A stretch of 64,000 bases of DNA from Microbotryum silenes-acaulis. Lineage: Eukaryota; Basidiomycota; Microbotryomycetes; Microbotryales; Microbotryaceae. Below, piece after piece: positions 4,720-52,444 of this stretch (position 1 is the first letter of the stretch; every line of letters starts with the position of its first letter). The notes under the pieces are model-generated. The model made no database searches. It was not told the origin of the DNA and worked only from the letters and a program-made list of their open reading frames with translations. The translations under genes and the position numbers were made by a program. Where the stretch lies: contig QPFY01000004.1 in assembly GCA_003665825.1 (NCBI GenBank), forward strand, positions 1,860,001-1,924,000, read 5' to 3'.

Positions 4720-6635
4720 ATGGCCACAATACCAAGCGGTACAAGCGGTGAAACCGTCAGCGATCAACTCGTCGTCAGTCTGACCACGTTCCATCAAATC
4801 GATAACCCCAGCTGATGCTCCTTCCTTTCGCCCATCCGATGCAATCAGCGGCAATTTTGTCCTCCGCTCGATTCGGCGCTCGTACATGCTTTGCTGCTCG
4901 ACCTTCCCTCGACACCTTCCCAAGAGGAGATCAAGGCCATCATATCGACCTTGAGCTCACTGGCCAGCGATGCCGAGATACAATCCACACCTGATCACGA
5001 GGATAACGGCAGGGACGGGACAGGGGCCTCCACCACGACCACCACAACCACCACGACCACGACCTCCAACACGACATCAACCCTCGCCGAAGACTTGGAC
5101 CTAGGCAAGACCTTGGAAGTCTGGTCATTGAATGGGGACGAGTCGTCGACGACGCAAGGCACGACCCCTTCGAATCGAAGTGATTCCGAAAGATCTTCGT
5201 ACCGACCGGATGATCCCTTGGCGTTCCTATCGTCCGTCTTCCCCAACGAATCGATCGAGCTGTTGCAGCAACATCTTGAGTCGTCTTCCGGAGACGTTGA
5301 GATTGTCGTCGATGAGTTACTCTCCAGTGGGTTGCTTAAAGAAGCTCAGAGGGAAGAAACGCCGCTCCCCCCGCCGACATTGGACTCTCCCGTCGTATCG
5401 AAACAACAACGCAAGCGGATAAAGGCGGCTCAGAAAGCTTCTTCGACGCTGTCCCTTACTTCTCCCCCACATCTCGCACCGCATTCGCCCGCACTATCAG
5501 CGGCAAGCTACGGTTCCACTCCTTCTTCACCCATCATCGCGGCGCGGCCGATCGAAAACCGGTGGGCGTCCATCTCGTCCCACGCTTCCAACCTGGCAAC
5601 GTTGCTCCATGTTCCCGAATCAAGGATCGTATCGACCTACCACAAGTCGTCGTCTTCCCTGCCTCTCACGCTGGCGAGGTTATTGCACGCCTTGACGGCC
5701 GAACGCCCCTTCGACTCACTTTCAAACGAAGAGGAACAGGGTCCGATCGATCTGCGCGATTCATTAGGAGCGGTCTTGCCCCACCTTACAGAGGAAAGAT
5801 TGGAGATGCTGCTCTCCTCTACGGAGGGTGACGTAGCCGATGCGATGGATTTGGAAGCGACGATTCAGGAGATCGAAAACTCCGAAGGGAGATTGGTCTG
5901 GTCCGAGATCTTGCAGTTGGATTCGACTGAACCTCCTCAACTCACGATGACCGGTCCGACCTTCTCGTCGACGTTTTCGACAACAGCAGCCATCCCAATT
6001 GCCGTCGTACCGAATCCTAAGATTCAAGCTGTAGTGCAAAGGAAAGAACGCTACACCTTTAGCGAATGCTCGGCCCTCGAATTGGAATACCTTCACAAGC
6101 GAAACCTCGCTCTTAGGTCAGCAGCAACCCACTTCCAAAAAGGTGGAATAGGGGAACAAGGAGCTGCTTCTTACTGGGCCGAAGAATCAAGGAAACTGGA
6201 TGCCAAGAGGAAAGTTTGGACGGAGAGGAAGGCTGTGGCTTTGGTTAGGGAGAGGGCGTTGAAGGATGGGATGGGGGGTGGGAGGGGGTTAGATTTGCAT
6301 GGGTTGACGATGAATGAGGCCATGGCGGTGACGAGGGATAGCTTGGATGAGTGGTGGAGGGTGAATCATGGTGCGTTTGCTGGGGTGAAGGTGTCGTGGA
6401 GGTGCTTTGCTTGAGCTAACCTCATCCGTGCTGCACCTTTGGCTGCACAGGTGCTCTTTGCCCATCTCCATTACGCATCATCACCGGTGTCGGCAAGCAC
6501 TCGACGAATCAAGTCGCGATCCTGCTACCCGCGGTGATCAAGCTTCTAGACAGAGAAGGCTGGAGCTGGTCCTACGACAACAGTTTTGGAGGCGCTGGCG
6601 CCAGAGGTGCGGTTCTTGTGAAGGGGAGGAAATGA
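4720..6635 (+). CDS. CUE2: CUE / DUF1771 / Smr-domain endonuclease (Cue2-like)
   Basis: Three exons. Exon 1 starts at the ATG at 4720 and probably ends at 4773 (donor GTCAGT). Exon 2 is 4849-6370 (donor GTGCGT). Exon 3 is 6451-6635. After a Thr-rich tract there is a CUE-like helix bundle (DPLAFLSSVFPNESIELLQQ). Two further CUE/UBA-like stretches follow (around NRWASISSHASNLATLLHV and LGAVLPHLTEERLEMLLSS). DUF1771 follows (LALRSAATHFQKGGIGEQG). The Smr domain comes last: LDLHGLTMNEA carries the D-x-H of the active site, and the last exon gives PLRIITGVGKHS and a glycine-rich end. Yeast Cue2 cleaves mRNA at collided ribosomes in no-go decay; human N4BP2 is related. The domain order supports that role here. 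The first splice donor is the least certain part. Confidence 0.85.
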
Positions 6636-9558: not shown

Positions 9559-10008
9559 GTCGCTTCGAGGCACATGGTAATGTTAGCTGTTGTGAGTGGG
9601 AGAAAGAAAGCGGAATGCGGTGGGGAGCAGCGTCCCAGCGAGCTCCGGCCGACGAGTGACATTAGTAATCGAGCTCGGGGCCCCTTGACGGATGCCGAGC
9701 ACGGCGGCTGGGCCGAAAATGTCCGATGATCGCTGCAGAGTCACCCAGCAAGTAGATCCTCTGCATCCGACGCCCCACTCAGATTCTGATTATTGTGCAG
9801 CAGCGCTGTACCCTCACACTTGAGAAAGGGACGGCAACTGCCAACGGGTGCCAACATTGGAGTCGGGCGTTTGCAATTGGCCCATCGTCATTCTACATGG
9901 TTTATTACCAGTGGGGTATAGGGAATCAAGGAGTGCGGTCGACGCTGCATTCCCTCCGACTTTTCCAAAGGTTCTTAGGTATTAATATAATTATACTGTT
10001 ATTGAAAT

Positions 10009-10753
10009 CTATCAAATTAAGAGAAAGAAGAAAAAAAAGCGCGCAGCCCCGGCGATTCCGATTTTCCTAACGGGACAGCAATCGCTTGTACCTCAAGGAC
10101 ACACAAGGGTACAAGAGCTGGTCACAGCGTGCCTTTATCGATCTTCGAGCCGATGAATTATGGGATGTCGTCAATCAATCACTCGACTCCCTTATTGCGG
10201 ACTATCGGTCCACACTCGTCAACACGCCGTGCCTGCAATTTGCAAACAACCAATGCGGAAGCGGAGCCTCGAGGTTCTGAAAATCGGTCGTTGCGATCTT
10301 GACCTTGTTGACGAATTCTTTGAAAGGGGAATCCCCAGCGTAGGGTTGTGCCAGAGTATTGAGGAGGTCCATAGTACGACTAGTAGGGCGACCGTGAGAG
10401 TGGAGGCCTCCGAGTCGGAGGGTGTCCCACATCTCGTACGCCGAGGTGAGATGTATCAAGTGTGACATCTGCTCCTCAGAGATCGGATTGATGATGATGC
10501 ATGCCAACTGGCAGGGACGCAGGTGCATACGTGTTGACGAGTGTGGACCGATAGTCCGTAATAAGGGAGTCGAGTGATTGATTGACGACATCCCATAATT
10601 CATCGGCTCGAAGATTGATAAAGGCACGCTGTGACCGGCTCTTTCTCCTTGTGTGTCCTTGAGGTTAGGCACAAGCGATTGCCCGACCGGTTATTATAGG
10701 GAAGTCGGATTCGCCTGGGCTGCGCGCGTTTTTATTTTTATTTATTTGATAGA
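10009..10753. repeat. spaced palindrome 1 (copia-gag related)
   Basis: The left arm, about 10009-10226, is repeated inverted at about 10530-10753, with a 303-bp spacer. Shared blocks include GCCGATGAATTATGGGATGT and the CTCGTCAACACG inner edge. The arms differ at many positions (small indels near the AT-rich outer end), so this palindrome is older than the two to its right. The spacer continues the reading frame that begins in the right arm. Confidence 0.8.
10202..10672 (-). pseudogene. copia-type gag fragment
   Basis: The frame begins in the right palindrome arm, crosses the spacer and ends in the antisense of the left arm. The spacer part encodes a gag/UBN2-like segment (HLTSAYEMWDTLRLGG, then SPFKEFVNKVKIATTDFQNL), typical of Ty1/copia gag proteins. 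In the arm, the gag-like text (RADELWDVVNQSLDSLI) lies in another frame, so the gene is frameshifted as well as cut. The plus-strand copy in the left arm (10086-10280) reads YKSWSQRAFIDLRADELWDV before losing homology. No protease, integrase or RT is seen nearby. This is a dead fragment. Confidence 0.6.
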
Positions 10754-11721
10754 CTAGGGTTCGGGGGGCGCTCCGCGCCTCCCTGCGTAAATGAAGGTCG
10801 TTGCGAGCTCCGCCCGCACCTCCCGGAGCTGACCGACGGGCATCACTTCCCTGGTCAGCGAGTGACACGGACGCACCACGACCCAATGCATAGCGGGGAC
10901 GTACCCTTTGATCTTGCGGACCAGCTTGAACGAAGCACCAATCTCGGGACCAACAATGATCCCCGTTGCGCAGCGTGACGAAGCGACCTGGACGCAAGCT
11001 TGGCGTGGTTCCGAGTGCATTCGAAAAGACTATGATGAAGCGCGGCACACGCCCGGGTGGCGTCGATCTTCTCCTTGGTCGTCAAAGCAGTCTTCGCGTT
11101 GCCCAGAGCCATCCCACTATGCACGTGTCGATTGTCGACCTTGGAATCTTTCAAATCGTCCAGCCGTAGTTCGCGTCGAAAGTCGCTCCCTTCCTGCGAC
11201 GCGAAAGAATTGCGAAACAGAGGGGCCGGCGGTGGCCTTGCGTCCGTCAGCGGCTTCCCATCGGCCTCCCGCAGCGATGAAGACCAGGCGGTGTGCCTGG
11301 CTGTCTTGACGGGCAATGTCACGAGTGGGGGAGTGGCGGTTCGAATGCATGCAGTAGTCGCGAACGGTCTTGTTCGCTGACTCGGCGACGGACGAGTCGA
11401 ACATCCTCGGCAGACCGAACCGCCGAATCGCCTCCTCGAGGTGCAGCAGGTAGTGATATTTGACCTTGCTGACCACGTGGGAGGCGTTTCGCTGCAAGGA
11501 CAGTAGTACGAATCGAGTGGCGAGAACCTTGTACGTGTCGGCATAGGCTGCGAGGTCGTCGGTGTCAGTACGCATCGCATGTCGCGTGAGTTTGCCGAGG
11601 GCCATCCAGCACTCTGCTTCGGATTGGATGAGCCACATGCGTTGCTGAAGAAAGTAGGCGACCAGGGGGAAAATCTGAGCGATGACCCTATAGTCCTTGC
11701 CGACACAGGATGCCGAAGTCC

Positions 11722-12451
11722 GGACGTAAAGTTCGCCCTTGATTTGTTCGCCAAGGCCACAGCTCGATTGGGTCGCGAGCCAACTGATCAGCTCCTGCTT
11801 CTCGTCCGCACTTCGCTTCTTGGTAGTTGATACCCAAAGGTACTTGACCATTCCAAGGAACGGTATATGTAGAAGATCGGGTGGTGTTGCGAGGTGAGGA
11901 TCGTAGTCTGTGGGCGACGAAGTGCGAACGTCCCGACGTATGGGATTAGCGGCAGGGCAGGGAAACTCCTACCAAGCCGAGCAGCGCTGTTGGGCGCCAG
12001 ACGACGCACCCTCCCGAGCAGATCTCGGCAGAGGCCCGGGCTTACCGAGCAATGGCGCCGAAGCAACAAGCCCACGTCCGTCAAGAAAGCGACGAGAGGG
12101 GACGTATGGCCGTCGAGACATTGATCGTACAAATGGAGGAGGCCGACGAACCGATGCATGGCCCTTTTTTCGACGTGCCCGGTAAGCCCCGGGCGGCGTT
12201 GAACGAGTTTCCCTGCCCTGTCGCTAATCCCATACGTCGGGACGTTCGCACTTCGTCGCCCACAGACTACGATCCTCACCTCGCAACACCACCCGATCTT
12301 CTACATATACTGCTCCTTGGAATGGTCAAGTACCTTTGGGTATCAACTACCAAGAAGCGAAGTGCGGACGAGAAGCAGGAGCTGATCAGTTGGCTCGCGA
12401 CCCAATCGAGCTGTGGCCTTGGCGAATAAATCAAGGGCGAATTTTACGTCC
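11722..12451. repeat. spaced palindrome 2
   Basis: Arms 11722-11968 and 12205-12451 (247 bp each) are inverted copies with about five mismatches. The spacer is 11969-12204. The left arm reads in the sense of the transposon gene on the minus strand; the right arm reads the same segment on the plus strand. In the right copy one C-to-T change makes a TAA (GAACAA to GAATAA). Confidence 0.9.
12052..12426 (+). pseudogene. inverted transposon-gene segment
   Basis: A plus-strand frame starts in the spacer (VETLIVQMEEADEPMHGP), crosses a short stretch that may contain an intron (GTAAGC at 12182), enters the right arm (DYDPHLATPPDLLHILLLGM) and ends at a stop produced by a single transition. The spacer part is the natural N-terminal continuation of the arm-encoded protein. 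This piece is therefore in reversed orientation relative to the surrounding element. Confidence 0.55.
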
Positions 12452-13943
12452 AGGTCGACGTGAATGAGACGGTCGTTGTCGTCGTCGCCGTCCGAGGTCC
12501 GAGCGCGTGCGACAACGATCTTGACTTGCGTCCCATCCTGTATGAAGGACGTCACATACACTAGCTGTCCGCGCACGTGCTTCACGATTTCGTCGATGAA
12601 GACGTCAAAGGCGGCAAATCGTTGCATCGGGGTCCGAGCATTCGGCGACAGCTCCCAGAAAGCACGCGTGTCGGCGGCCGACTTGATTGACAAGGGGCGC
12701 AGAGTTGGTATGTGCGCCATGAGTTCGCGCAGTTCGGGAATAGCGAAGTGCTGATAAACAGAAGATGGCGGTCGGGAGGAGCTGAGGCTTCGTCAGCGAT
12801 CGTGACAGCGGTAACAGTGACGCGAGCCCGCCGACCGCGGGCCCGGCTTGGGCCGTACCGAGCGAATCATGTCGGCTGGCGTGATGACGTCGATCGTGTG
12901 CCCCTTGTAGGTGGTGGCTGGTCGAGGAACGAACAACGGGACCTCTTTCGCCAAGTTTTCCAACAACCGTCTTCGCCGCTGGCATTTGACCGTGTCCGAG
13001 AGCTTTGACGACGGAACGTGTGGATTGATATTGGGCCATGCCGACCCGTTTCGACGGCGATCGGAGATGTAAGGCAGCGACTAACATCTGTGGCCAAGGG
13101 GTTTGGGCGAATCAAAGTCAGCGAACCCCAACGTGAGGTGCTGACCATACGCTGCTGCCCCACCACCCCTCACCTTATGCGATGGAAAGGGAAAGTAGGG
13201 GGAATCCGGCTGGGAACGGCGGTCGACTTCGCCTTGCGACTGAGCCCGACTGTGTTCACAGGGCCTGCCGATGGCATGGAGGAGCACCCGCCCAATCAGC
13301 ACACGACAGGCAGAACAGAAATTTCCTCGCCACGGGCCACAAACAACTCCGGTTCGCGGGCTTACCAGCTGATGCGTCGAGCCGCTTGGGTCCATCAACC
13401 CAGGCGTCGCCAAAGTCGAAATCGGGTTCGAGGCCGCCCCAGCCTTCCGAAGCGCTGCCGGTCGAAAGGCGACGGGAATCATCATCAGACCCTTGGCTCG
13501 TCGAGTGGCGACTGAGGGTCTCGCCATGGTCTTGCTGAGGATCGCCCGAATCGCTAGCTGAATCGTCGAGGATCCGGTCCAGATCTGGGATCAGTGCAGA
13601 GGACTAAACGAGGCGAGGCAAAGTTTTAGCACGAGGGACAAGTCGACTAAATAAAGCCCCACCATTCCGACGTCAAGGGCGCCGCTGTTGCATCCGCCCA
13701 ACCCACACTTACGGATCTGGGATCACTGCAGTGCGCGTCAGCGAGGGTCGCACCGAGGGAGGAATATCAAGCCCGCTCGACCCCTTCGCCGACACAGGCG
13801 TAACCATGCGGTACGGAGACGACGGCAGCGTGCTCGCCGAGGCGGCTCGGTCGTCGCTGAATCTTGTCGCGAATTGTAAGTTCTTGTGGTGCGCGCCCGA
13901 GCTGAGGACGGTGTCGCTGGACCTGCGATTTACTCCAACGCCG

Positions 13944-14644
13944 CGTGCTTCACACGCCGATATTCTTCTACGATATGCCATGCCTGCATAGGCTGTTCAA
14001 AAGGGGGTTCCTCTTCTCCTCGCGCTTTTGTCTTCCTACCATCACGTCGCCTCGAACCTTCACAGACCACCGTGCTTAGTCCATGGCTACCCTCACAGCT
14101 TCCTCCGTATACCAAAGCACAGACGCACCACGTACACACCTCTCAATCCGACATCGATAAACTCCAACTAACATATCAGAACCAGCGTGTGACTCTGGCG
14201 TCGATTGGTTTGAACACTTCCATTATTAAACTGTCAGCGGGCCACTTCGGACAGACAGTGATCAGTAGAAATGGAACGGACCCTTTGGTCGTAACATTGT
14301 TCGGAAAAGTTGCGACGTTGGACCCCTCATTAGGAAAGCCACCAGTTTCGTGAGGTTTAATAATGGAAGTGTTCGAACCAATCGACGCCAGAGTCACACG
14401 CTGGTTCTGATATGTTAGTTGGAGTTTATCGATGTCGGATTGAGAGAGGTTTGTACGTGGTGCGTCTGTGCTTTGGTATACGGAGGAAGCTGTGAGGGTA
14501 GCCATGGACTAAGCACGGTGGTCTGTGAAGGTTCGAGGCGACGTGATGGTAGGAAGACAAAAGCGCGAGGAGAAGAGGAACCCCCTTTTGAACAGCCTAT
14601 GCAGGCATGGCATATCGTAGAAGAATATCGGCGTGTGAAGCACG
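13944..14644. repeat. spaced palindrome 3
   Basis: Arms 13944-14231 and 14355-14644 are inverted copies (288 and 290 bp). The spacer is 123 bp (14232-14354). The arms differ by a 2-bp indel (ACACCTC against AAACCTCTC) and by few substitutions, among them TTCGAAC in the right arm against TTTGAAC in the left. Sequence outside the two arms is unrelated. Confidence 0.93.
14176..14505 (-). pseudogene. transposon ORF start, broken
   Basis: An ATG at 14505 in the right arm opens MATLTASSVYQSTDAPRTNL, runs through the spacer (TGGFPNEGSNVATFPNNVTT) and then reads the antisense of the left arm. The left copy has lost two bases and shifts frame. The text resembles the start of a retroelement gag protein only loosely, and I assign no family. 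Confidence 0.35.
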
Positions 14645-41223: not shown

Positions 41224-44200
41224 CCTATTCCCTCCGTTCTTCAGGGAAGATACCCAATTCCTGCTGCAAATCATTAACATGCTTCATCCTCAACGTCGAG
41301 ACTTCCCGATCCTTGATCACCGCTTTCAAGTCCTCGCAGGCGATCTATGCGAATACGGGCCACAATGGGGGACTGATTCGTCAGTTCCTCCCTCACCCAC
41401 CCCGAAATCGGGTGAAGAATTTCAGGAAGCAGACGCACTTTGAGCAATTTATCGACTTGGTATAAATGCGTCGTCATGGCTCTCATAAGCGCATAGAGAG
41501 TCGCGGCTGAATCACAAGAGAGGATTTCGGTTTCGTGCAATTTGAGGATGGCGACAGCGACGCGGAAGAGCATGACCGTGCCGAAGACGAAGATGAGGTC
41601 CCAAATCCGGAGGAGGGTCTGGTAGGAGGAAGAAGACTGAAGTTTAAATCTTTGAAAGAGAGCGCAGAAAAAGGGAAGGGGGGGACTCACTTGGATCGGT
41701 AAAGCATCCGTGAACAAACTCAAGAACCATCCGAACGTGATCGCTGGTAATTCGACACCTAGATCTTCGAGGTGGGCGGCGAGGTCGGGCATGAGACGAA
41801 CGACGAGAGTCTTGAGGACACGCTGGTCCGCTTGGGAGACGAGGAGGTGAGAGGTGTAGTAGTCAGATGGAAGGATTTTCTGTGGACAGTCCGAGGATTT
41901 GGGTCAGTTTAGAACCCGAACGACGATGCAACTCAGGCTGGCGAGAAGAACGCACCTCAATGATGCAAACCAAGACCCAAAACGCATCCTCTTCGGCAGG
42001 GTGAGTGAGCAAGAGGGTAGCAGTGAGATTGTTCATGCCTTGACAATAGCCGATGAGAGGGTTGTGTCGAGAGTAGGCAACGAGAACGTTGCGCAGTTTG
42101 GCGACGCCGGGCCCGGTGCCGGCGAAAAAGACGTTGGTGGGGAAAGTACGATGACCTACAGGAGTAGGAGGATCGAATATTAGTATCACAACCCTGTTCG
42201 GAAGTTCAACATTCGCAGAGCTCACAGTCCATATCGATCTGATTCAGGCACTGATTCTCTTCATTCTTGTGCGCCAACAAATCCTGATACACCCCCGGCT
42301 CACGCGCCTCGTTCGCTCCGGAGCATTCAGCCCAGATCCTGTGAGACAACGGAAATCACGCTGAGTTTCACGTTCACGCGGCACAGCGATTGAGTAGGAC
42401 TCACTTGGGTCGATAAGCGATCGGTACGCCTTTGCGAACAAGTTGTTTGAACTCGGCCCAATCCTCTTTCCCTGACTTGCCATCGACGCCCATCTGACTG
42501 ACGCCGACTAGATCTTCGCATCGCCAAGCTTGTTCATCCGCCGTTGCTCGACTTTTCGATTTATCGCCCTCGTCGTCAGAACTACTGGAAAATGCATTGA
42601 TCTGATCCGATTGCACGACGACGCTCCTCGAAGCTCGTTTCCGAGTCGCAGCGGAATGAGTCGAGTCCTTCCCATCATCAAGACCATTATAAAGATTCGT
42701 CGATCCATTCATCCCTGACGAACCTATCTTGGCGAGTTTGGTTTGACGTTTCGAGATGAAGGTGTCCCATTCGAGTTTACGTTTTTGGTCTTGTACGTCC
42801 GACATCTCGCGCAGTTGGGTGAGGAGGCGTTTCATGCTTTGTGGACCGGAGGTGGGGGCCGTGGGGCTGGTGATTGAAGCCGTCGTCGCGGGTCGATCCG
42901 ACGAAACTGAGCTAGTGAAATGAGGTGCATGAGGAGTCGTCGATGTGGTGGTACTTGTGGAAGGCGCAAGGCTAGGAATGGGCGAGCGAGGTCCAATTGG
43001 CGAGCGAACGGTGGTAGGCGAAGAAGCCCTTGACGACAAAGGTGGTGGAATGCCCAGAGCCTCGCGCAGCATTTCCAGTTCGGCATCAAGTTCGGCTTGA
43101 CTCTGCACGGCGTCGACAGCGGGGCCGGCATCCTTTGAACCCGGAACAGCGACGATCTGATCCTCCTCGTTGTCGTCGTCGTTGTCGTGTCCCATGTCCG
43201 TGAACACCCGCCTTGACCCTCCGTTCCTCATTGATCGTTCCTGCTTCTTCCTCGCTTCACGCAACAACTTCATCCCACTGCGCACGTCGTACACGAACCC
43301 ATAGCGATCGACCATAGGACCTTCCTCTCCCGCGCTGGCTGCCTGTCCAGAAGTCGGATTGTGCAAAGCCAATGTCGGAGGTGCAGCTTCACCAGAAATG
43401 ACACCGAGCTCCATCATCGTCGGTGGGATCGCAGCAGACGAAGAGATTGTCGGCGTCATCGGAATAGGCGGGGGACTCTTCACGCATGGAGCTGCATGCG
43501 CCGAAAGAGAAACGATCGTTGACGGCGTGGACAGAGCCGCAGGAGCAGCGGGCGAGTATTTGGAAAGTGTGGGTAGCTTGGGGAACAGAGTCAAGTTCGG
43601 TTCACCGTGCGTCGAAGAAGCACCGCTCGCACGTCGCATCCCTTCCGAAAGCGATCGCGCCATCTTTGGCGAAGAAGGAGTCGAACCGAACCCAAGTGCT
43701 CGACCGAAAGCACCTTTGGCCGAAGCCACATAGCCTGGGTTCGTAGCCGCACTCGCAGGCGGAGCTTCCTTGGCGGCGGGGGTCATGATCGCTTGGACGA
43801 GGGCCGGGGACTTGCGTTCTGACAAGTTCGCCGAAACGCGTCGCCGCGCCTTGATCGTTCGATCCGCATTCCATGATGCATCTGTGAGCGACTCGGGCGG
43901 TGTCGAGATGCTAGAAGCCGAAGGGTCAGCGTCCGCGGTGGTGTCGCCGTCTTCTTGCACGACTTTCAGGCCCTGGACTAGGGTGTCGATCGTCGTAACC
44001 GGCTCTTCGATGATCGCCGCCGATGTCGAAAGATCATCATGCACGGTCGACGAGGCTTGTCTCGAACTGCGGGAGCTCCGAAACGACGACGTCCTCGACA
44101 AACTTGCCCCACCCTCGGCCGCCGAAACCAAAGCGCTGTGAGCCTGTTGATGCGAGAGACTCGGTGCAGAAGGGATCCGAGGTCGGGTGAGGATCGGTGA

Positions 44201-45940
44201 TCCAGGGCCTTCCAAGGCGCGCGGTTTTCGATCGGGTGTCGCAGACGAAGCAGAGGAAGTGTCGGATTCCGTCGGTGAGACCAAACTGCTCGTCTCGTTG
44301 GCCGAAATGGCGGTGGCCGTCGTGATCGCGCTAAGTATCGAAGCAGACGGCGGCGACGCAGAAGTTACCGGTTCTTCTGGAGGAGAGACGGCCTCATCTG
44401 GACGAGGCTGCAGTGAACTACTGCCCTTCCTCGGTCGAGTCGGAGACGTTAATGCGAAAAAGTCGCTGATCCTATTCGGCTTGGGCATTGGCGTCGCCAG
44501 CTCGTCTTCATGCAAGGCCGTCGTCGCATCGACATCGATCGTCGGCGATTCGACTCGTTCTACTCCCGCTTCGTCTCGCCCACCTGAAGATCGGATCGAG
44601 CTGGTCGTCTCGGTCTCGAAAACGGACGAAGCGAGCGTGCTCTTCTTCTCCTTGGCCCTCCAATTCTTCCACCCAATCCAACCTTCGTAAGTACCCTTGT
44701 TGGCCGGTGATGTCGTCGGATCGTCAGACTTGACGCTGTCGTTGCAGACGATCGAAGAAGTCCCCGAGGCGATGCTTGAACTGCTTTGCGCGCTGTCGGA
44801 TCGCTTGTGGCGACCCTTTTTGATATCCTTCGCTGCGGTTAAAGAATTCGGGTCGGGCACGGGTTGTGGTGGGGGCGACGAAGATGTTCCTGCGAGGAGG
44901 ATGCTGCCAAAGAGACGAGAGGACAGCGAGGCGTGGCGTCCCCGGTTCCCCGTCTTGTCCTTGCTGATCGTCGACGAAGGGATAATGTCCACCGCTGGAG
45001 TAGCCGACTCGTTCGAAGTACCTTCATTAACGGTGTCGGTCCCCGCGTTCGGTACCTGGAAAGCATTCTCTCCCATTGCTTCGGCCAGATCATCGAGGTC
45101 GAGGTCGACTTGAGAGAGGTGCGTCGCTGATGCTGGCGGTTGCTCCGAGCTCGTCTCTAAGTCCGACGTCGTCGACGATGTCGGAGGCGCTTCAGGTGGC
45201 GGTAACAATGCGATCCTCCACCCTCTGCTTCGTATCGGTGTACTTCGACTCGGCCTCCTCCCCGCCGTCGTCGTTTGGGGTGTGTCCTCGCTCGGCACAA
45301 CTCGAGCCCGAACTTTTGCTCGATCGACTTCTCCCGGCCCGACGCCCGCATCCCTACAAATGGTCTCCAACGCTTCGCATTCCCGTTGACGTGTTTCAAG
45401 TTGGGCTATTATCGAGTCTCGATCTTTGGACAAGGCCATGACGAGGGCGACGAGTTGCTCGATCGGAAGCGCGGCGAGATTCGACGACGGCAAGAGGTGG
45501 GGCGCCATGGGAAGAGCGATGTGGCTAGGCAATGCATCTGGCGCTGGGGCCAATGAAGCCGCGATCGATGGAGCAGGGGAACCAGTAGGAGTGGCGTGAG
45601 GAATGTGGCTGTCGTGGTGTACGGACGAAGCAGAACGGAGCGAGAACGATTCGGCGGACGGGGCCGCGAGCAGGATCGAGCCCGAGTCGAGCTCGCGCAC
45701 CGACTTTGAACGCGATGTCCGTCTCTCCCTCGAAGATGCTCTTGATGGGTGCTCTGATCCCGTCGGAGCTGCTGAAGTGGATGCGATCGGACTCGGGGAG
45801 GTGTCTGGTGGGGAGGCCGGGAACAGAGGCGAAGTGGATCGGTTCGGCGGTGGCGCTAGAGGCGAAGGAAGCGAGGCCGCCGTCGACTCGGAAAAGAGCG
45901 GATACCGGGCTATAGTCATGCCAGAACGTGGGTTCATCAT
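41224..45940 (-). CDS. large TBC-domain Rab GTPase-activating protein
   Basis: The first in-frame Met pair is at 45940 (MMNPRSGMTIARYPLFSES). One exon of about 3.5 kb encodes a disordered Ser/Pro/Thr/Ala-rich region of about 1180 residues with a short coiled coil (LVALVMALSKDRDSIIAQLE). The TBC domain follows over several exons: KQLVRKGVPIAYRPKIWAEC, the arginine-finger motif IDMDCHRTFP (IxxDxxR), NPLIGYCQGMNNLTA (YxQ glutamine finger), DLGVELPAITFGWFLSLFTD and LLRIWDLIFVFG. Both catalytic fingers are present, so it should be an active RabGAP. The last exon ends at 41224 (LQQELGIFPEERRE), reached by an intron with donor GTGCGT. Its Rab target cannot be told. An upstream exon before 45940 is possible. 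Confidence 0.9.
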
Positions 45941-48900
45941 GTCATAGTACGTGGCGGGGCGAGGTGAACAGCCGAGACGAGCGGACGGTGTGGGGGAGGA
46001 CCGTGCAGAGTGGGGCGATAGGGTCAGTATGCGCTTCAACGGCAGCAATGTATCCGGTCACGGGATATTATCCTGGCTTGTATCATCCTTGATGGCGAAC
46101 ACTCGATTCAGACACGCCCTCGCCTCGTACGGGTGCGACGGACAGTCGGCTCTTGGGACAGAGACTGCGCTCATGAATGCCAAAACTCACCTCGACTTTC
46201 AGCCATACCGAATCAGCCTCAAATCCGGACTCGGTATTTAGAAGGTGGCCGCAAAATCTGGCCTCGCTCTGGGTCGTAGCGCCGCTCAGCGCTCGCGATT
46301 TCTCCCTCGTGGAGCCAGGAGCCGGGCTGGGCCAATCAATGTCTGACCAGTCGAGTCGCTGAACTTGATCCCGACGATGAGAGTGACGTAGGTGGGAGGT
46401 GCGCACGCAGTCGCACGTGCGATGCTGGCCGGTCCGATTCGCCGATGTCCCGCGATATGATGCAGGAGCCAAGCGCCGAGGTGCTGATTCAAGTTCGATT
46501 ACGAGACTACTAAGTGCTCAGCTAAGTGCTGAGAGCCGCTGAGACCCGGTGACGCGTTCGCGAGACACGCGCAAGCACGCCCACCGCAAGGCACAGCACT
46601 GGCACAGCACCCGCGCGTGAGGCCGTGAGGCGCTTGAATTCTCTTGAATTCGCGAAGCCCTTGAGGTGGAATCCAGACTGATCCCGATCCAGTTCTGATT
46701 ACCGCTTCACCTATACCAAACAGATCAAGGGTAACCGAGACTGTCTTTGAACAAGTCCTTTCAGACGGACAGGCCGGGCAGAGGGGCGGCCGTGAGCTGG
46801 ATCACAGCTGCCACCTTGAACTACGACAACGGCCCACTTGCAGTGTGCGGCCCCTGTCGCACTTCTCAATCTCGGTCTCAAAAGGGCGCTAAAGTGAAAA
46901 GAGTTGACTCTACTGAAGCAATCGTTTTATCGTTTTGTGTAGAGACATGTATTGGAACGCGGGGCAGTGCGGGTGATTGAGCGATTATTCGGATCATGTA
47001 GATTACGCGACACTCAGTGATGAGCACGTGTGGTCTTTTCCGGTGTGGTACGTCGAGTTGCTAAGCCGCCGAGTCCAGCGACGTCTCTTTCCTTTCTCCT
47101 CATCACTTCCCAGGCTCTCGCCCTACAGACATGAAGCTTTTGATCGTATCCTCCTTCTTGGCGGCCTTGTTGACCCTCGTCGTCGCTATTCCTCGCAACA
47201 AGCCTAACGCACATAGTAACCTTGAGTAGTAAGTAGTGACCCAAGTGGCACGCTCATGTCGCGGACGGTTAGTGTCAGAGTGTATATTGCTGTTTCATCC
47301 CACTTGTCTTCCTGATTATGATTAGTTACTAGTTGTTGATATTAGTCGCCTCGCGCGGCTCGTGCCTGCCTCGCGCGCGCTCCCTTAGCGCTTCTCTTCT
47401 TTCTCCAACTATCTTTACTCTCATCTTCGGCTCTCGTACTTACGTATCTCGTGCCTCGGCTTCAGCTTCCCAAAAGTTAGCGTCGGCAATCCCGCCCCCC
47501 CCCCCCCCCCTCTCTCCTCCCACATTCAATTGTTAAGCTGTACAGACGCTGAGGTCTTTTTATTTTCCAGTTGCCCGGCGGCTCATCAGTGCATATTGGA
47601 GCAACAATGCGACAAGCGCGCCTTGAACGAAGACCAGCAAGTACTTCACACCGTTTCAAGTTTGACGCCCTGTGCAAACACTCAAGACGCCCTCTTGTGA
47701 TCACAGGAAAGCAGGATGTTACCATATCTGCTTCGAAAATTTTTGCATGTAGGAAACCGGCCAATAGGGAGTAGACATAAATTCAACACGGCGACTTGCG
47801 GCGCTCGGAGCCTTTCTGACGTTCAGCCCTCCCTTGTCTCGTTGCGTCTGACCTTTCAGGCTCCAGCAACGTTCAAGCTCGTCTTCTAAAGCGCTCACAA
47901 GTACGGAACGTGGTGCAAGCGAACTTTGGAAACTGTGGAAAATCGCTAGGAAGCGATACGCAGGGGAATTGCTTTTGTTTGGGGGCAGGGTCCTTTCCTT
48001 CCGTTTGGAATGTGATTCATCATGATGATCTTCGAGGGACCGTGACCCCGCCTTCGTCGCAACGAGGGCTGAATAGCTTGCTACGAGACCAGAGCAAAGC
48101 AAAACTCGCGACGCAGCTGAAAGTGAGGTGTTGGTGCACGTGCGCCGACTACGCTTTTGGATCCTTGCAGCGAAAAGACCTCCTAACTTCGACATTGGAG
48201 ACGAGGTCCGACGCGACCTATCTACCGCGCGCCCCGGCCCGAGCCCTTTGACCCAGAGCTGACGGCGGCGACGACGACGACGAGATGAAGGCAACGACCC
48301 TCGCCCGTAATGACGAGTAGCGACAACCTCTTCGGCAGCAAAAAGTGTCGAAATACACCTTGTCTGGCCATGGGGTACAGGGCTGGTTCGACATCGGCCT
48401 CAAAGTGCGATTGAGCCTCCACCCCGGATCCAGATCTTGGAGTCGCCCGTAGCCGAGAGTCGGTGGATGACGAATCGTGCAACCAGTTTCGCTCTGAACA
48501 AGTTTGCAAGCGGTTTGGTATCAAACTCAACTACACCACATTGTAGCCGCGATCCCACGTTCACGGATTCTCGACGAACCCCGATCTAACTCGATCGACG
48601 CTAGATAGTACCGGAGGAAGCTCCTATTGGGTGATGCTCTCAATTTCGGGCCAGTTTTTTTCATGTTCTGCCACATAATTCGCAGTGGTTTTGAGAGACG
48701 AACATGATTACACGATGCGATGCTCGAGCGCGATGGTCGGCCCAGTTGCAATCACTGAATTGTATGTCTCGCATGATCCCTGGTACTTCCTGCGCTTGCG
48801 AGGCAGGTTAGGCTGGGTCCTCCCTACGAGCCCGAACCGCCACCACATTTTGGCCACCACCTCCACCCACTGGACCCTGCAAGTCTTGAAGCTTCTTTGA

Positions 48901-49685
48901 CAGATAAGGACTAAGAGGTACTCCACGACTCAGCTCCGAGATACACGAGTGAGATGATGAGAATAGCGTGGAGAAGAAGACCAGAAAGAAAAAAAGACGC
49001 CAAGACAGAGATAGGCGCGCACGCAGAATAAAGAATTAACAAGGCTAATAGAAAAGAGTTAGGCTCTCAGACCCCACTTCTAACAGCTTCATATTGTCAA
49101 CTGTCTCGCCGCCTTGTCGACCGTCGTCGTCACTCAAGCTGGTCAAGTTCTAGGCAGTGCAGGGAGAATGGTATAGCAAAAGCGTTCGATCAAAGATGAT
49201 AAAATATGAGAGATAAGGTGTGACCGAGAACTCATAAGAGACCCAAGACGAGAGAAGCGAGAGAGCGACCGGAACGGCCGAGAGACAGGGGTACGTAAGC
49301 CGAGAGACGAGACTGAGGCGCTGAGACTTGAGACCGGAGAACAATGCCGAATGAGACTTTAAGAAACCCAGAAAGTGAGAACCAGGTAAGATGCTGTGTT
49401 GAATCCTAGAAGTGGTCTACCTTACCTGAGAACAAGAAGCAAACTCCTCCAAAACATCCTAGTCATTCGAACCGCTCCGCTGCCTTCATTCCCTTTCACT
49501 GCCTCATCCGCTCACTTAGCCGCTCCTCCCATTTCTCCTCCGTCCGGCCCGGTCCCCCGTGTGCATTTCCGCCGCATGCTTTGTCATTGATAGATGATCC
49601 TCGAGCCATCGAAGTACTGAGTTTACCCGGGAGCACTTTATCAATGAGTGTTGAAGGTGTTAGTAGACCTTGCACTAACATCGGG
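45941..49685. other. gene-poor accessory stretch
   Basis: Holds the TBC-gene promoter at the left and the small ORF at 47131. Otherwise only frames of poor composition occur, including 47719-48294 (-), which is Arg/Ser-rich and without motif. A run of 16 C (47495-47510) is present. 49020-49640 is rich in GAGA-type purine words and may be LTR or decayed repeat sequence. Confidence 0.4.
47131..47229 (+). CDS. 32-residue secreted peptide ORF
   Basis: ATG at 47131 encodes MKLLIVSSFLAALLTLVVA, a textbook signal peptide, followed by only 13 residues (IPRNKPNAHSNLE) before TAG. The start follows a pyrimidine-rich leader (CTTTCTCCTCATCACTTCCC). It may be a true micro-secreted peptide or the first exon of a longer gene: GTAACC at 47215 and GTAAGT near 47229 are possible donors. 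There is no CaaX box, so it is not a lipopeptide pheromone. Function unknown. Confidence 0.4.
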   Translation: MKLLIVSSFLAALLTLVVAIPRNKPNAHSNLE

Positions 49686-49756
49686 GGCCGGATAGCTTAG
49701 AGGTCAAAGCTTTTCCGATTAATGGAAGCGACCCAGGTTCGACTCCTGGTCCAGCC
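49686..49756 (+). tRNA. tRNA-like Pol III unit, UUA-type loop (tRNA or SINE head)
   Basis: The 71-base segment folds as a cloverleaf. Acceptor GGCCGGA/TCCAGCC pairs with one C-A mismatch. The D stem is GCTT/AAGC. The anticodon stem is TTTCC/GGAAG around loop GATTAAT. The T stem CCAGG/CCTGG encloses TTCGACT. A-box (TAGCTTAGAGG) and B-box (GGTTCGACTCC) promoters are intact, and a TTTT terminator follows at 49764. The loop would place TTA at the anticodon, which would read UAA stop codons, but position 33 is A instead of U. It is therefore more likely a tRNA-derived repeat or pseudogene than a working tRNA. A diverged inverted copy of its 5' half lies at about 51557-51600. Confidence 0.5.
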
Positions 49757-50696
49757 GTTCTTCTTCTTTTGTTGATTATTTCGGGATCATCGTTGATTCC
49801 AACAATGAGAAATCTGCCGAAACCGGTGTTGACCCTGCCCAAACCGGTGTTGACCTTGACAGTTTGAAGCGACTCCGGAAATGACTCCTGAACTCGGCCC
49901 TCAGCTACAACCAAAACTCGGCCCCGCTACAACCGAAAAGACTCCTGAACTCTTGACAAATTGAAATGACGATTCCGACGGCACAGGGACCCCTCCCAAG
50001 TACCAGTGAGTCCGATGTCCAATTGGGGAAACAGGAGGTATCGACGTTAAGCATCACGTCAATGGGTCTAAACAGTGGAGTCCTTTCCGTTCAGTGTCGT
50101 GCCACTTAACTGAGGGCGCATTCCCTTAAGCAGAGGAGCTGATACGAGGTTTCAATCGCCTCCTGTAAGCATCTTCAAACTCGTACAAGCGCCGAAGCGC
50201 GAGGTGCGAGGTGCTTTCGCGACAACTGTTGGAAGGGACTGCGCGAGCAGTAATGGCTAGGAGCGTCTTTGGGGTTTTGGGTAGTTTTAGCCATTTTGGC
50301 CAGGGAGGCGCGGACTGCGTCAGCGGCGGTGCGGAGTCCGTCCTCTTGATTGGTTCCTCACCAACCATTGACTCTGCTATCGACCGTTGACTGAAGTTTG
50401 TGTTCTCGTCTCCCTGGACCAAAGATCGCGAAGCACCAAATTTAACTTCAAGGTAGCGTCTGATCAGTTCAACCGTGAACTCAAATTGTGGTGCACGATC
50501 ATCGACAACACATGTCCAGGAAGGCTGAGTCTCTCGAGACCATAGGTCTTCTCACCCGCATCAACTGGCCGGCATCGGCGCCTGCGATGCGTCTTGCGCT
50601 ACAGTCAATCAGCGCATTCCGCGTCGCGAACGGCGAGCCAAAGAAACCGCCCGCCTCGAGGCCGCTCAACCAGTCGCTCAAGGACTAAACGTCTTT

Positions 50697-51275
50697 ATGC
50701 AACGACTACGACGCGAAGGGCGCAAAAGGGAGGACTTTGATCAGGTCTGGCGTCGACGAAAACACATGGTTCAAGCTGAAGGGAGCTGCTGTCGACGCAA
50801 ACCTACACCAAGTCTGCAGTGGACCGCACTCGTACGAGCTTACGAGACGAACACCGTCCCATTCGTGGGAACCAAGACGTTGAGGGCGTACTGGAACCTA
50901 CGGTACGAGCCAGGCACGAGCGTCACGTCGTTCATGACCGAGGTGGAACGACTTGGGGAACTCTGCAACCGCCAAAAACTGGCGTTCTGGAAGCAGCAGC
51001 TCGGCATCGGCCCCGAAGAGCTACAGGGGTTCTACGCTCAGATCGTCGATGTCCTTGGAGAGGAACGTGGAAAAGCTCTTTCGTCAATGGTTCTACACAT
51101 CGACGACTTCGCCATCAAAACCGTTCTCATGGAGCAACTTCCCGAAAAGTACACGTTCGCATTCCGTGAAGAAAAGGACGTCGACTTATTACTCGAGAAG
51201 GTTCGAACCGCCTACGACGAAGACGTCATCATGAACGGTGTCAATCACAAGGAGCACACGGGATCGACGATCTGA
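50697..51275 (+). pseudogene. copia-type gag fragment
   Basis: The plus-strand frame runs through the left palindrome arm (TKTLRAYWNLRYEPGTSVTS, FMTEVERLGELCNRQ) into the spacer (FAIKTVLMEQLPEKYTFAFR, then VDLLLEKVRTAYDEDV) and ends in the inverted arm. This is the helical gag/UBN2-type region of copia elements with the LP-x-Y motif near its end. No zinc knuckle, protease, integrase or RT follows, so it is an isolated fragment. Confidence 0.55.
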
Positions 51276-51556
51276 GCGTAGAACCCCTGTAGCTCTTCGG
51301 GGCCGATGCCGAGCTGCTGCTTCCAGAACGCCAGTTTTTGGCAGTTGCAGAGTTCCCCAAGTCGTTCCACCTCGGTCATGAACGACGTGACGCTCGTGCC
51401 TGGCTCGTACCGTAGGTTCCAGTACGCCCTCAACGTCTTGGTTCCCACGAATGGGACGGTGTTCGTCTCGTAAGCTCGTACGAGTGCGGTCCACTGCAGA
51501 CTTGGTGTAGGTTTGCGTCGACAGCAGCTCCCTTCAGCTTGAACCATGTGTTTTCG
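50758..51556. repeat. spaced palindrome 4 (copia-gag related)
   Basis: Arms about 50758-51050 and 51263-51556 (about 293 bp) are inverted copies; I see a single substitution (AACCGCC against AACTGCC). The spacer is 212 bp. The inner edge is GATCGTCGAT and the outer edge is CGAAAACACATGG. The right arm is followed at once by the inverted, truncated tRNA-like sequence, while the complete one lies at 49686, so the palindrome sits between two inverted members of that repeat. Confidence 0.93.
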
Positions 51557-52444
51557 ATTAATTGGAAAAGCTTTGACCTACTAAGCTATCCGGCCCCCGA
51601 TATCAGTGCAAGGTCTACTAACGCCTGCAACACTTCCCCTTAGACCTTTGCACTGCTGCCAGGCTATTGCAATGCGTCGACTCTAAGTCCCACTGATTGG
51701 ACACTGTGTCAAGCTTCTGCGGCAGCTCCGGCAGCTATGTGCGGCCTCATTGGAAAGATTTACAAGAAAGGTTCTATAATAGATCCTCACAACAACTACG
51801 TCCCAGAAGCTGGGTGACATCGATTCGAATTTGGGTCCGCGTGACGGAGGATTCGAAATAGTACTAGTAGCCCCTCTGCACCAGAAGCTTTCTTTTGGAG
51901 TTCACTTCTCATTCGAGATTGACATGATACACCAGCACGACGGGATAACCCAGACTAATGCTCATTTATTGCCGTTCCCCAGCTCGTCGATTACTAGCGA
52001 CGATTCGGCCTTATCCCCGACGAAGCGCAGCGCGAACGAGCCCGAGAGCTCGACGGCAAAAAGGTTGATCCCTCCGCTGGTCGCAAGTCGTACCTCCCTT
52101 TGTGGGTCAGGACCCGAAAAGTGACCTTTTCCAAAGTTTTGGCTTGTAAACGGCCAAAGATCAGGATCCAGGAGAAAAGAACTAGCGCTTTCGGTGATAC
52201 TAAAGGCGGGGAATAGATTTCCCGGCCCCCAGGTGCCAAGTCCGTGCGAGGTTGGTTGATCACATGTTGGGCCCCGCATTTCGGTGCTCGTTGCTTCCCC
52301 GCGACGGCGGGTTTCGAGAATTCCTAGGGGCCGGACGGGCTCTGTTGTGATTCGTTCACACGCTCCTACTCCCACGACTCGTCCAACGCTTTTCGTCTCC
52401 TCCTCCTGTCCCTTCACCTCTCGAACCATCGATCCTGAAGCAAG
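51557..52444. other. repeat remnant and ADH promoter
   Basis: 51557-51640 matches, inverted, the stretch around the tRNA-like unit at 49645-49720 (shared GTTAGTAGACCTTGCACT and GGGGGCCGGATAGCTTAG). The rest is unique sequence leading to the ADH start. No gene recognised. Confidence 0.5.

Follow-up and report, generated by a model that had tools for sequence, protein, structure and literature searches.

What kind of event would leave a long inverted repeat at four places in one stretch of fungal DNA? The question is raised by the 64,000-nucleotide stretch of Microbotryum silenes-acaulis analysed here (the window), in which the initial annotation had described four spaced palindromes. All four were recovered. 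Arms and spacers measure ~219 and 303 bp in P1, 247 and 236 bp in P2 (compared with an unrearranged copy on contig C6), ~289 and 123 bp in P3, and 294 and 212 bp in P4; the features are collected in Table 1. The P1 arms are 85.7% identical over 230 columns, rising to 97% across the inner 114 bp. Self-alignment of P2 gives arms at 11722-11979 and 12194-12451 with 96.5% identity, and five arm differences in the comparison with C6. Identity is 98.6% in P3, and the P4 arms have one mismatch in 294. None of 40 first-order Markov shuffles of the window gave a pair of this class. The four palindromes are genuine and non-random, and as single loci they are ordinary decay products. RIP-like decay of TCG was rejected as their cause, since the ratio of TTG+CAA to TCG+CGA (P1 0.89, P2 0.62, P3 0.62, P4 0.42) falls both above and below the window mean of 0.63.

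Table 1. Features of the four palindromic loci, in window coordinates
Feature	Position	Strand	Remarks
P1 left arm	10008..10226	+	5' part of copia gag, sense on +; outer end overlaps dispersed repeat
P1 spacer	10227..10529	-	copia gag running on from right arm; ~150 bp absent inside relative to intact copies
P1 right arm	10530..10753	-	contiguous with spacer
P2 element, downstream coding part	10816..11968	-	includes left arm 11722-11968; 96% to C6 copies
P2 spacer	11968..12193	+	inverted relative to C6 copies; contiguous with right arm
P2 right arm	12194..12451	+	inverted copy of left arm
P2 element, resumed	12451..13945	-	~1.5 kb further along C6 copy, the far deletion edge
P3 left arm	13944..14231	+	one frame with spacer at inner end of arm
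P3 spacer	14232..14354	+	reading frame common with inner left arm
P3 right arm	14355..14644	-	inverted arm match
Truncated copia copy	50226..51261	+	5' LTR ~50227-50447, gag region (by position), left arm 50757-51050, spacer; 87% to C13 copy L030
P4 right arm	51263..51556	-	inverted copy, 1 difference from left arm
tRNA-like repeat, 5' half and 5' flank	51557..51634	-	cut at palindrome edge
tRNA-like repeat, whole copy	49686..49757	+	Rfam tRNA 47.3 bits; ARAGORN anticodon TTA

The structure of P4 can be read against the copia copy L030 on contig C13. The sequence is retained to L030 position 5341, continues with 5129 to 4838 in inverted orientation, and then passes into the tRNA-like flank. 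The inverted piece of 292 bp bridges the truncated copia copy and the broken tRNA-like repeat, with homology of 0-1 nt at one junction and 0 nt at the other. Both arms share 49 differences from L030 and only one is private, so the template of one arm would have been either the opposite arm or a near-identical copy; the same counts rule out L030 as a dispersed source of the second arm. The relatives of P1 and P4 are Ty1/copia LTR retrotransposons. L036 has gag_2, rve, RVT_2 and Pol_BBD matches with direct repeats, and L030 has RVT_2, Pol_BBD and gag_pre-integrs with direct repeats; gag and rve matches were absent from L030 in the two frames tested.

P2 lies in a low-copy ORF. Compared with the C6 copy L033 it is retained to 4762, then carries the 483 adjacent bases from 4998 to 4516 inverted, and resumes at 6270, with an overlap of 1 nt at each of the two junctions. 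Over 247 bp the arms have five common differences from C6, four that are left-only and one that is right-only, which makes the C6 copies an unlikely source of the second arm. Judged from these comparisons, a local template, or else a near-identical copy or cDNA, is indicated for P4, and less strongly for P2.

P1, like P4, is located in the 5' part of a Ty1/copia copy, and its arms have 21 shared differences, with nine and six private. The left arm is probably the inverted copy; it had at first been read as the template, a reading that was dropped. Neither P1 nor P3 has a parent near enough to resolve the junctions, and the geometry of P3 is assumed. The P3 open frame has weak protein matches (31-42%), a 'gag' label for it was dropped for want of a supporting family match, and a single occurrence of the complete P3 arm-spacer-arm was found.

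These comparisons alter several features of the original description. Arm plus spacer had been taken as continuous transposon coding sequence. The continuity holds, through relatives for P1, P2 and P4 and through the open frame for P3, but only P1 and P4 are recognizable as transposon sequence. No Pfam domain, RVT_2 and gag included, was found for the P2 family in the window ORFs, P0001 or P0003, and ten window ORFs searched against Pfam yielded no match at E 0.01. The second arm's far flank, described as unrelated, is not so in P2, where both outer flanks come from one element ~1.5 kb apart. In P4 it is the truncated tRNA-like repeat, and in P1 a dispersed repeat that is found elsewhere near an LTR or the tRNA-like repeat of P4. 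A common architecture had been proposed too. All four are indeed arm-spacer-arm units, but they are not uniform, since two distinct geometries occur.

Further events at loci on contigs C2, C3, C8 and C23 support the suggestion of a repeated snap-back or inverted-duplication process. In the C2 copy L031 an inverted 6403 to 6226 is followed by the 3' LTR, with loss of 3.1 kb and junctions of 4 and 1 nt. In the C3 copy L038 an inverted 5485 to 5226 is placed after 5224 and the sequence resumes at 5197 without deletion; its junctions have 3 nt and 8 nt (imperfect 14) and lie at a natural CTTGTACC/GGTACAAG hairpin. This copy carries a pair of LTRs that differ at 2 of 191 positions; CCAAC lies on each side, the palindrome is internal, and the arms have three mismatches in 262 columns. 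The C8 copy L034 has undergone two events. In the first ~278 bp is inverted and ~1.3 kb lost, values that are approximate at an alignment identity of 67-78%. The second ends beside a truncated LTR, and its relatives on C1 and C9 have the arm and spacer with the second arm absent. The event on C23 is of the forward-jump type.

Set against unrearranged relatives, six events are resolved (P2, P4, L031, L034 twice, and L038), and each is a copy of adjacent sequence inverted between two junctions. As read from the alignments, an inverted local piece appears together with deletion or truncation on the far side, the latter in five of the six. Homology is 0-4 nt at eight of nine readable junctions; at the turn it is 4 nt in L031, 3 in L038, 1 in P2, 0-1 in P4 and 0 in the second L034 event. 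Short junction homologies and recurrence at other loci are thus observed directly. Resolved fillers measure 178-483 bp and spacers ~0-450 bp, and the expected shared class of arm length was not found. Forward jumps make up five of nine event geometries (P2 and the loci on C2, C3, C8 and C23). P2, P3, the second C8 event and that on C23 lie outside sequence recognized as retroelement.

Among copies fetched by homology with >300 bp matched, an inverted local piece was present in three of four rearranged or truncated copies (L031, L034, L035 and L038) and in none of five unrearranged copies (L030, L032, L033, L036 and L037, of which L032 and L033 are near-identical); since homology to palindromic sequence guided the choice of comparison loci, these figures are not an unbiased rate. 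Six 10-kb stretches chosen without homology (L043-L048, two adjoining the window) contained no inverted pair of at least 100 bp with >80% identity and spacing <1 kb. L047 has one 154-bp palindrome at 78%, and L043 a 166-bp pair at 71% spaced by 4.6 kb. By eye, no opposite-strand pairs <1 kb apart were seen for RVT_2 among the 150 matches scored out of 677 candidates, or for protein kinases among the matches listed, a weak control because the scoring favours intact copies and the arms may fall outside these domains. Two opposite-strand match pairs <1 kb apart, judged from coordinates, did emerge from other searches, at C4:323282-324204 and C9:422874-423380. Direct tandem duplications occur at L037 and L046, so local duplication is also found in non-inverted form.

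We consider it likely that the palindromes are scars left when chromosomal DNA was repaired by fold-back or template switching. The event would begin at an end, broken or stalled, within an already inserted element. This end would use a neighbouring part of the same locus as its template on the opposite strand, either through a fold-back on itself or through a strand switch at a replication fork, and the new strand would then be attached to a distal end that shares few bases or none with it. The outcome would be an inverted filler a few hundred bases long, with the sequence past the break usually lost. What is inferred here is the initiating lesion, be it a break or a stalled fork, which polymerase acted, how the ends were joined, and that the DNA was chromosomal. 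The forward jumps, which count against this reading, would go beyond simple hairpin snap-back, requiring inter-strand switching, or else the later loss of the center from a near-perfect palindrome.

Alternatively, a retrotransposon reverse transcriptase could have made palindromic cDNA by template switching or self-priming, and this cDNA would later have entered the genome by integration or by capture at a break. Copia copies contain four of the six resolved events, some close to the start of gag, and the C3 copy, with its paired LTRs, flanking CCAAC, internal palindrome and switch points on a natural hairpin, fits this origin. The divergence of its arms is close to that of its LTRs, and gives no order of insertion and palindrome formation. 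However, the P2 family lacks Pfam domains in the ORFs searched, the P4 junction also takes away half of the tRNA-like repeat beside it, and the LTR in which the second C8 event ends belongs to another element. We regard this origin as unlikely, although it could account for the copia cases. A chimera of assembly or amplification, a concern raised in the initial annotation, is very unlikely. The P4 arms are one base apart and chimeric molecules yield such structures, yet the arms of P1-P3 are ~1-15% diverged, each arm of P1 and P2 has changes of its own, and unrearranged relatives exist. Moreover the fillers are a few hundred bases long with unlike flanks, and the far side of P2 is a deletion edge within the same element. 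Published assemblies of four Microbotryum species were made from PacBio reads of haploid genomes (PMC5962589). The M. silenes-dioicae protein P0002 (BQ5605_C021g09268) has a P2-type ORF followed by a P1-type gag, in the order and strand of the window, which backs the locus and not the palindrome.

Might the palindromes be retained because their hairpin RNA silences copia elements? Arms of 200-300 bp could pair as RNA, and P1 and P4 contain copia sequence. Yet the outer arms of P1 would pair poorly, P2 and P3 lie outside recognized transposon sequence, and the intact copies L036 and L037 diverge by >20% from P1 over the P1 region, making such selection highly improbable. The arm-spacer-arm anatomy also recalls fold-back or MITE-like transposons with long terminal inverted repeats, the hairpin elements suggested initially. 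But the sequence is different in each palindrome and the parents differ, relatives carry one arm and the spacer without the second arm, and no whole-unit copies were present among the best candidates scored; we take this origin to be extremely improbable.

Repair by fold-back or template switching would make the palindromes most likely a known type of DNA-repair scar that is locally frequent, with no new kind of element implied. Should such events prove as frequent across the genome as they are locally, inverted template-switch repair would be on record in a natural fungal genome at ~180-480 bp, exceeding the short events of yeast and apes. Filler length, loop and junction homology could then be measured in the wild, and there would be a concrete path from dead transposons to hairpins. 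A broader proposal is that Microbotryum, when repairing breaks in silent, repeat-rich DNA, strongly favours long local fillers in inverted orientation, as yeast does when RPA or Mre11 is impaired. Transposons would then be routinely dismantled genome-wide into hairpin-forming palindromes that could secondarily seed RNA silencing or further instability. We think this quite unlikely.

The mechanism itself is already known, and what stands out is the length of the fillers and their local recurrence. Foldback inversions and inverted duplications in yeast, primed by a hairpin at a break, have reportedly been described as gross chromosome rearrangements (PMC10622511, PMC7467729). Both involve inverted duplication, but here the fillers are local, and the flanks are collinear in P2 and L031.

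The closer likeness is to the local foldback inversions and inverted templated insertions of yeast (PMC11724301), which have an inverted local copy at the break, a loop between the inverted parts, and another junction with 0-5 bp homology that resembles end joining. Microhomology-primed foldback there has a genetic requirement for Pol delta and end joining. The yeast fillers are 2 to ~150 bp, most <14 bp, with a 41-nt loop and an imperfect inverted seed of 10 bp, whereas those here are 178-483 bp where resolved, with loops of 120-300 bp in the backward type. Distant inverted insertions in yeast have a median of 6 bp (range 2-11) of homology between the inverted pieces (PMC11724301). By contrast the turn homology here is 0-4 nt in all five readable events, which counts against the reading that we favour, as does the greater length of the fillers. 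A similar likeness exists to the four-point short-range template switch, in which sequence is kept to point 1, inverted between 2 and 3 and resumed at 4, in several geometries (PMC7954356). In great apes such events have a median of 12 and a maximum of 128 bp, and 65% lengthen the sequence. The present fillers exceed these lengths, and deletion or truncation accompanies five of the six resolved events, amounting to 1.3-3.1 kb where measured.

The window comprises bases 1,860,001-1,924,000 of contig C4 (1,943,288 bases), in an assembly of 29.85 Mb and 88 contigs. All four spaced palindromes claimed in the initial annotation were found, with sizes close to those claimed, and none arose in 40 Markov shuffles of the window when pairs were required to have arms ≥100 bp long, ≥75% identity and a spacer <1 kb. 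A minus-strand open frame of 1215 codons in the window has no Pfam match at E 0.01. The final 1000 bases of C4 lack the TTAGGG repeat and terminate in a GTGCACGGTC-type repeat; the contig thus stops short of the telomere.

Coordinates of the palindromes and associated features (L, compared genome stretches with their own coordinates; C, contigs)
Feature	Sequence	Position
P1 arms	window	10008-10226, 10530-10753
P2 arms	window	11722-11979, 12194-12451
P3 arms	window	13944-14231, 14355-14644
P4 arms	window	50757-51050, 51263-51556
Minus-strand open frame	window	42401-46048
Apparent solo LTR	window	48895-49085
tRNA-like repeat, entire	window	49686-49757
tRNA-like repeat, 5' half, minus orientation	window	51557-51634
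tRNA-like repeat	L038	604-730
Older palindrome	L038	7136-8282
Stretch with P2-type copy (L033)	C6	780001-790000
Stretch with P2-type copy (L032)	C6	838001-848000
Opposite-strand repeat matches	C9	422874-423141, 423146-423380
Opposite-strand P3-type matches	C4	323282-323410, 324028-324204
Direct pair, 351 bp	L037	2006-2707
Direct pair, 256 bp	L046	4928-5439
Contig end (L053)	C4	1942289-1943288

Outside the window the only long matches to the P2 family, among the best 40 of 85 candidates scored, are two C6 copies; short fragments occur on C8 and C23. The C6 copies carry the P2-type ORF and are a 6.9-kb direct duplication, 99.94% identical and ~58 kb apart. Window 10822-11968 is collinear with L033, 11968-12451 is the reverse complement of L033 4998 to 4516, and over 12451-13945 collinearity is regained from L033 6270. 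Compared with the C6 copies ~1.5 kb is missing, including a ~280-bp dispersed repeat that they hold, and each junction has a 1-nt overlap. The 247-bp arms share five differences from C6, with four found only in the left arm and one only in the right. On this sequence pattern a local copy is favored as the template of the inverted piece, and there has been drift after the event. In a search of 5.8 billion proteins the P2-type ORF matched just three, from Microbotryum intermedium and M. silenes-dioicae, which makes a Microbotryum genome very probable; Pfam searches found no domain in the window ORFs or in two of these proteins (P0001 and P0003).

LTR-like direct repeats are present in the relatives of P1 (L036 and L037) and of P4 (L030). 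The domains found in L036 are copia gag, integrase and RVT_2; those in L030 are RVT_2, Pol_BBD and gag_pre-integrs. Gag and integrase-core domains were not found in two frames of L030, and the gag region of P4 is therefore named by position. The 5' LTR and next region of P4 are collinear with L030 up to 5341, followed by L030 5129 to 4838 in inverted order, and then by half of a tRNA-like repeat. The arms have 49 differences from L030 in common and one that separates them. The simplest reading is a single event, in which the remainder of the element and half the tRNA-like repeat would have been lost, leaving a 292-bp inverted filler. The dispersed tRNA-like repeat has anticodon TTA (UAA) and, by eye, A at position 33, and is thus probably tRNA-derived. 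In L038 a copia LTR starts immediately after it. The apparent solo LTR in the window belongs to the P1 copia family, and is 97-99% identical to the LTRs of the C3 and C16 copies.

The right arm and spacer of P1 are collinear with gag except for a ~150-bp internal gap. In the M. silenes-dioicae protein P0002, P1-type gag comes after a P2-type ORF; residues 1-295 match window 11851-10902 and residues 445-513 match 10718-10500, with order and strand conserved. The arrangement is therefore common to another species, and the inverted copy is probably the P1 left arm, the outer end of which lies inside a dispersed repeat. At positions where L035 and L037 are alike, 21 differences from them occur in both P1 arms, nine in the left arm alone and six in the right alone; divergence is the highest of the four palindromes. 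The inner left arm and spacer of P3 form a single reading frame, a putative ORF, and the DNA was found at no second site in the genome. Nine weak matches to the ORF (31-42% identity) lie elsewhere in the genome, including the opposite-strand pair on C4, ~0.6 kb apart, possibly a further inverted duplication.

Related events were found at other loci. On C2 (L031) 178 bp is inverted and followed by the 3' LTR, with 3.1 kb lost and junction homologies of 4 and 1 nt. On C3 (L038) an inverted 260-bp copy lies at the start of gag with no deletion; the element has CCAAC at each side, and the switch point is a natural CTTGTACC/GGTACAAG hairpin. In the first C8 (L034) event approximately 278 bp is inverted and ~1.3 kb lost, from an alignment of 67-78% identity. 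The second C8 palindrome stops 5 bp short of a truncated LTR, and its C1 and C9 relatives have the arm and spacer without the second arm. This layout recurs on C23 (L039), compared with a C20 relative that lacks the inverted repeat (79-84% identity). The third C8 palindrome (80% identity) and that at L038 7136-8282 (81%) are older. The repeat adjoining the second C8 palindrome has opposite-strand matches <1 kb apart on C9, possibly another inverted duplication.

Inverted polarity and an adjacent source are consistent features of the events. In five of the six resolved events sequence is lost or truncated past one junction, and eight of the nine junctions read show homology of 0-4 nt. Together these features are the signature of synthesis from a broken or stalled end, then end joining. 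Such an end would extend on a nearby opposite-strand template, and the new end would then be sealed by end joining; which enzymes act we can only infer. In their geometry P1, P4 and the second C8 event correspond to a hairpin with a 120-300-base loop, as P3 does by assumption. P2, L031, the first L034 event, L038 and L039 begin with a forward jump, a geometry that would need strand-to-strand switching, or a palindrome that later lost its center.

The 254 kb examined (the window plus 19 stretches, 13 picked by homology and six not) contain 12 inverted pairs (four in the window, three in L034, two each in L038 and L039, one in L047) and two direct pairs. One L039 pair is a repeat-like stretch of 75% identity, and the L047 pair is 78%. 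The direct pairs are tandem with 1-bp spacing and 95-96% identical. Four rearranged or truncated copies were obtained by homology, and three have an inverted local piece. None of five unrearranged copies has one, and two of those five are near-identical. Because the sample is small and was selected, these counts offer a lead and do not give a rate.

A study of Microbotryum transposons (PMC10502011) describes their RIP-like decay and the content of copia, Ty3 and Helitron elements; its main text has no word starting 'palindrom'. A limited search of the literature on Microbotryum transposable elements and inverted repeats found no account of such palindromes, which is not proof of absence. Foldback inversions in yeast extend up to ~150 bp, the majority being <14 bp, and their other junction carries 0-5 bp homology (PMC11724301); template switches in great apes have a median of 12 and a maximum of 128 bp (PMC7954356). 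The fillers described here are longer than either.
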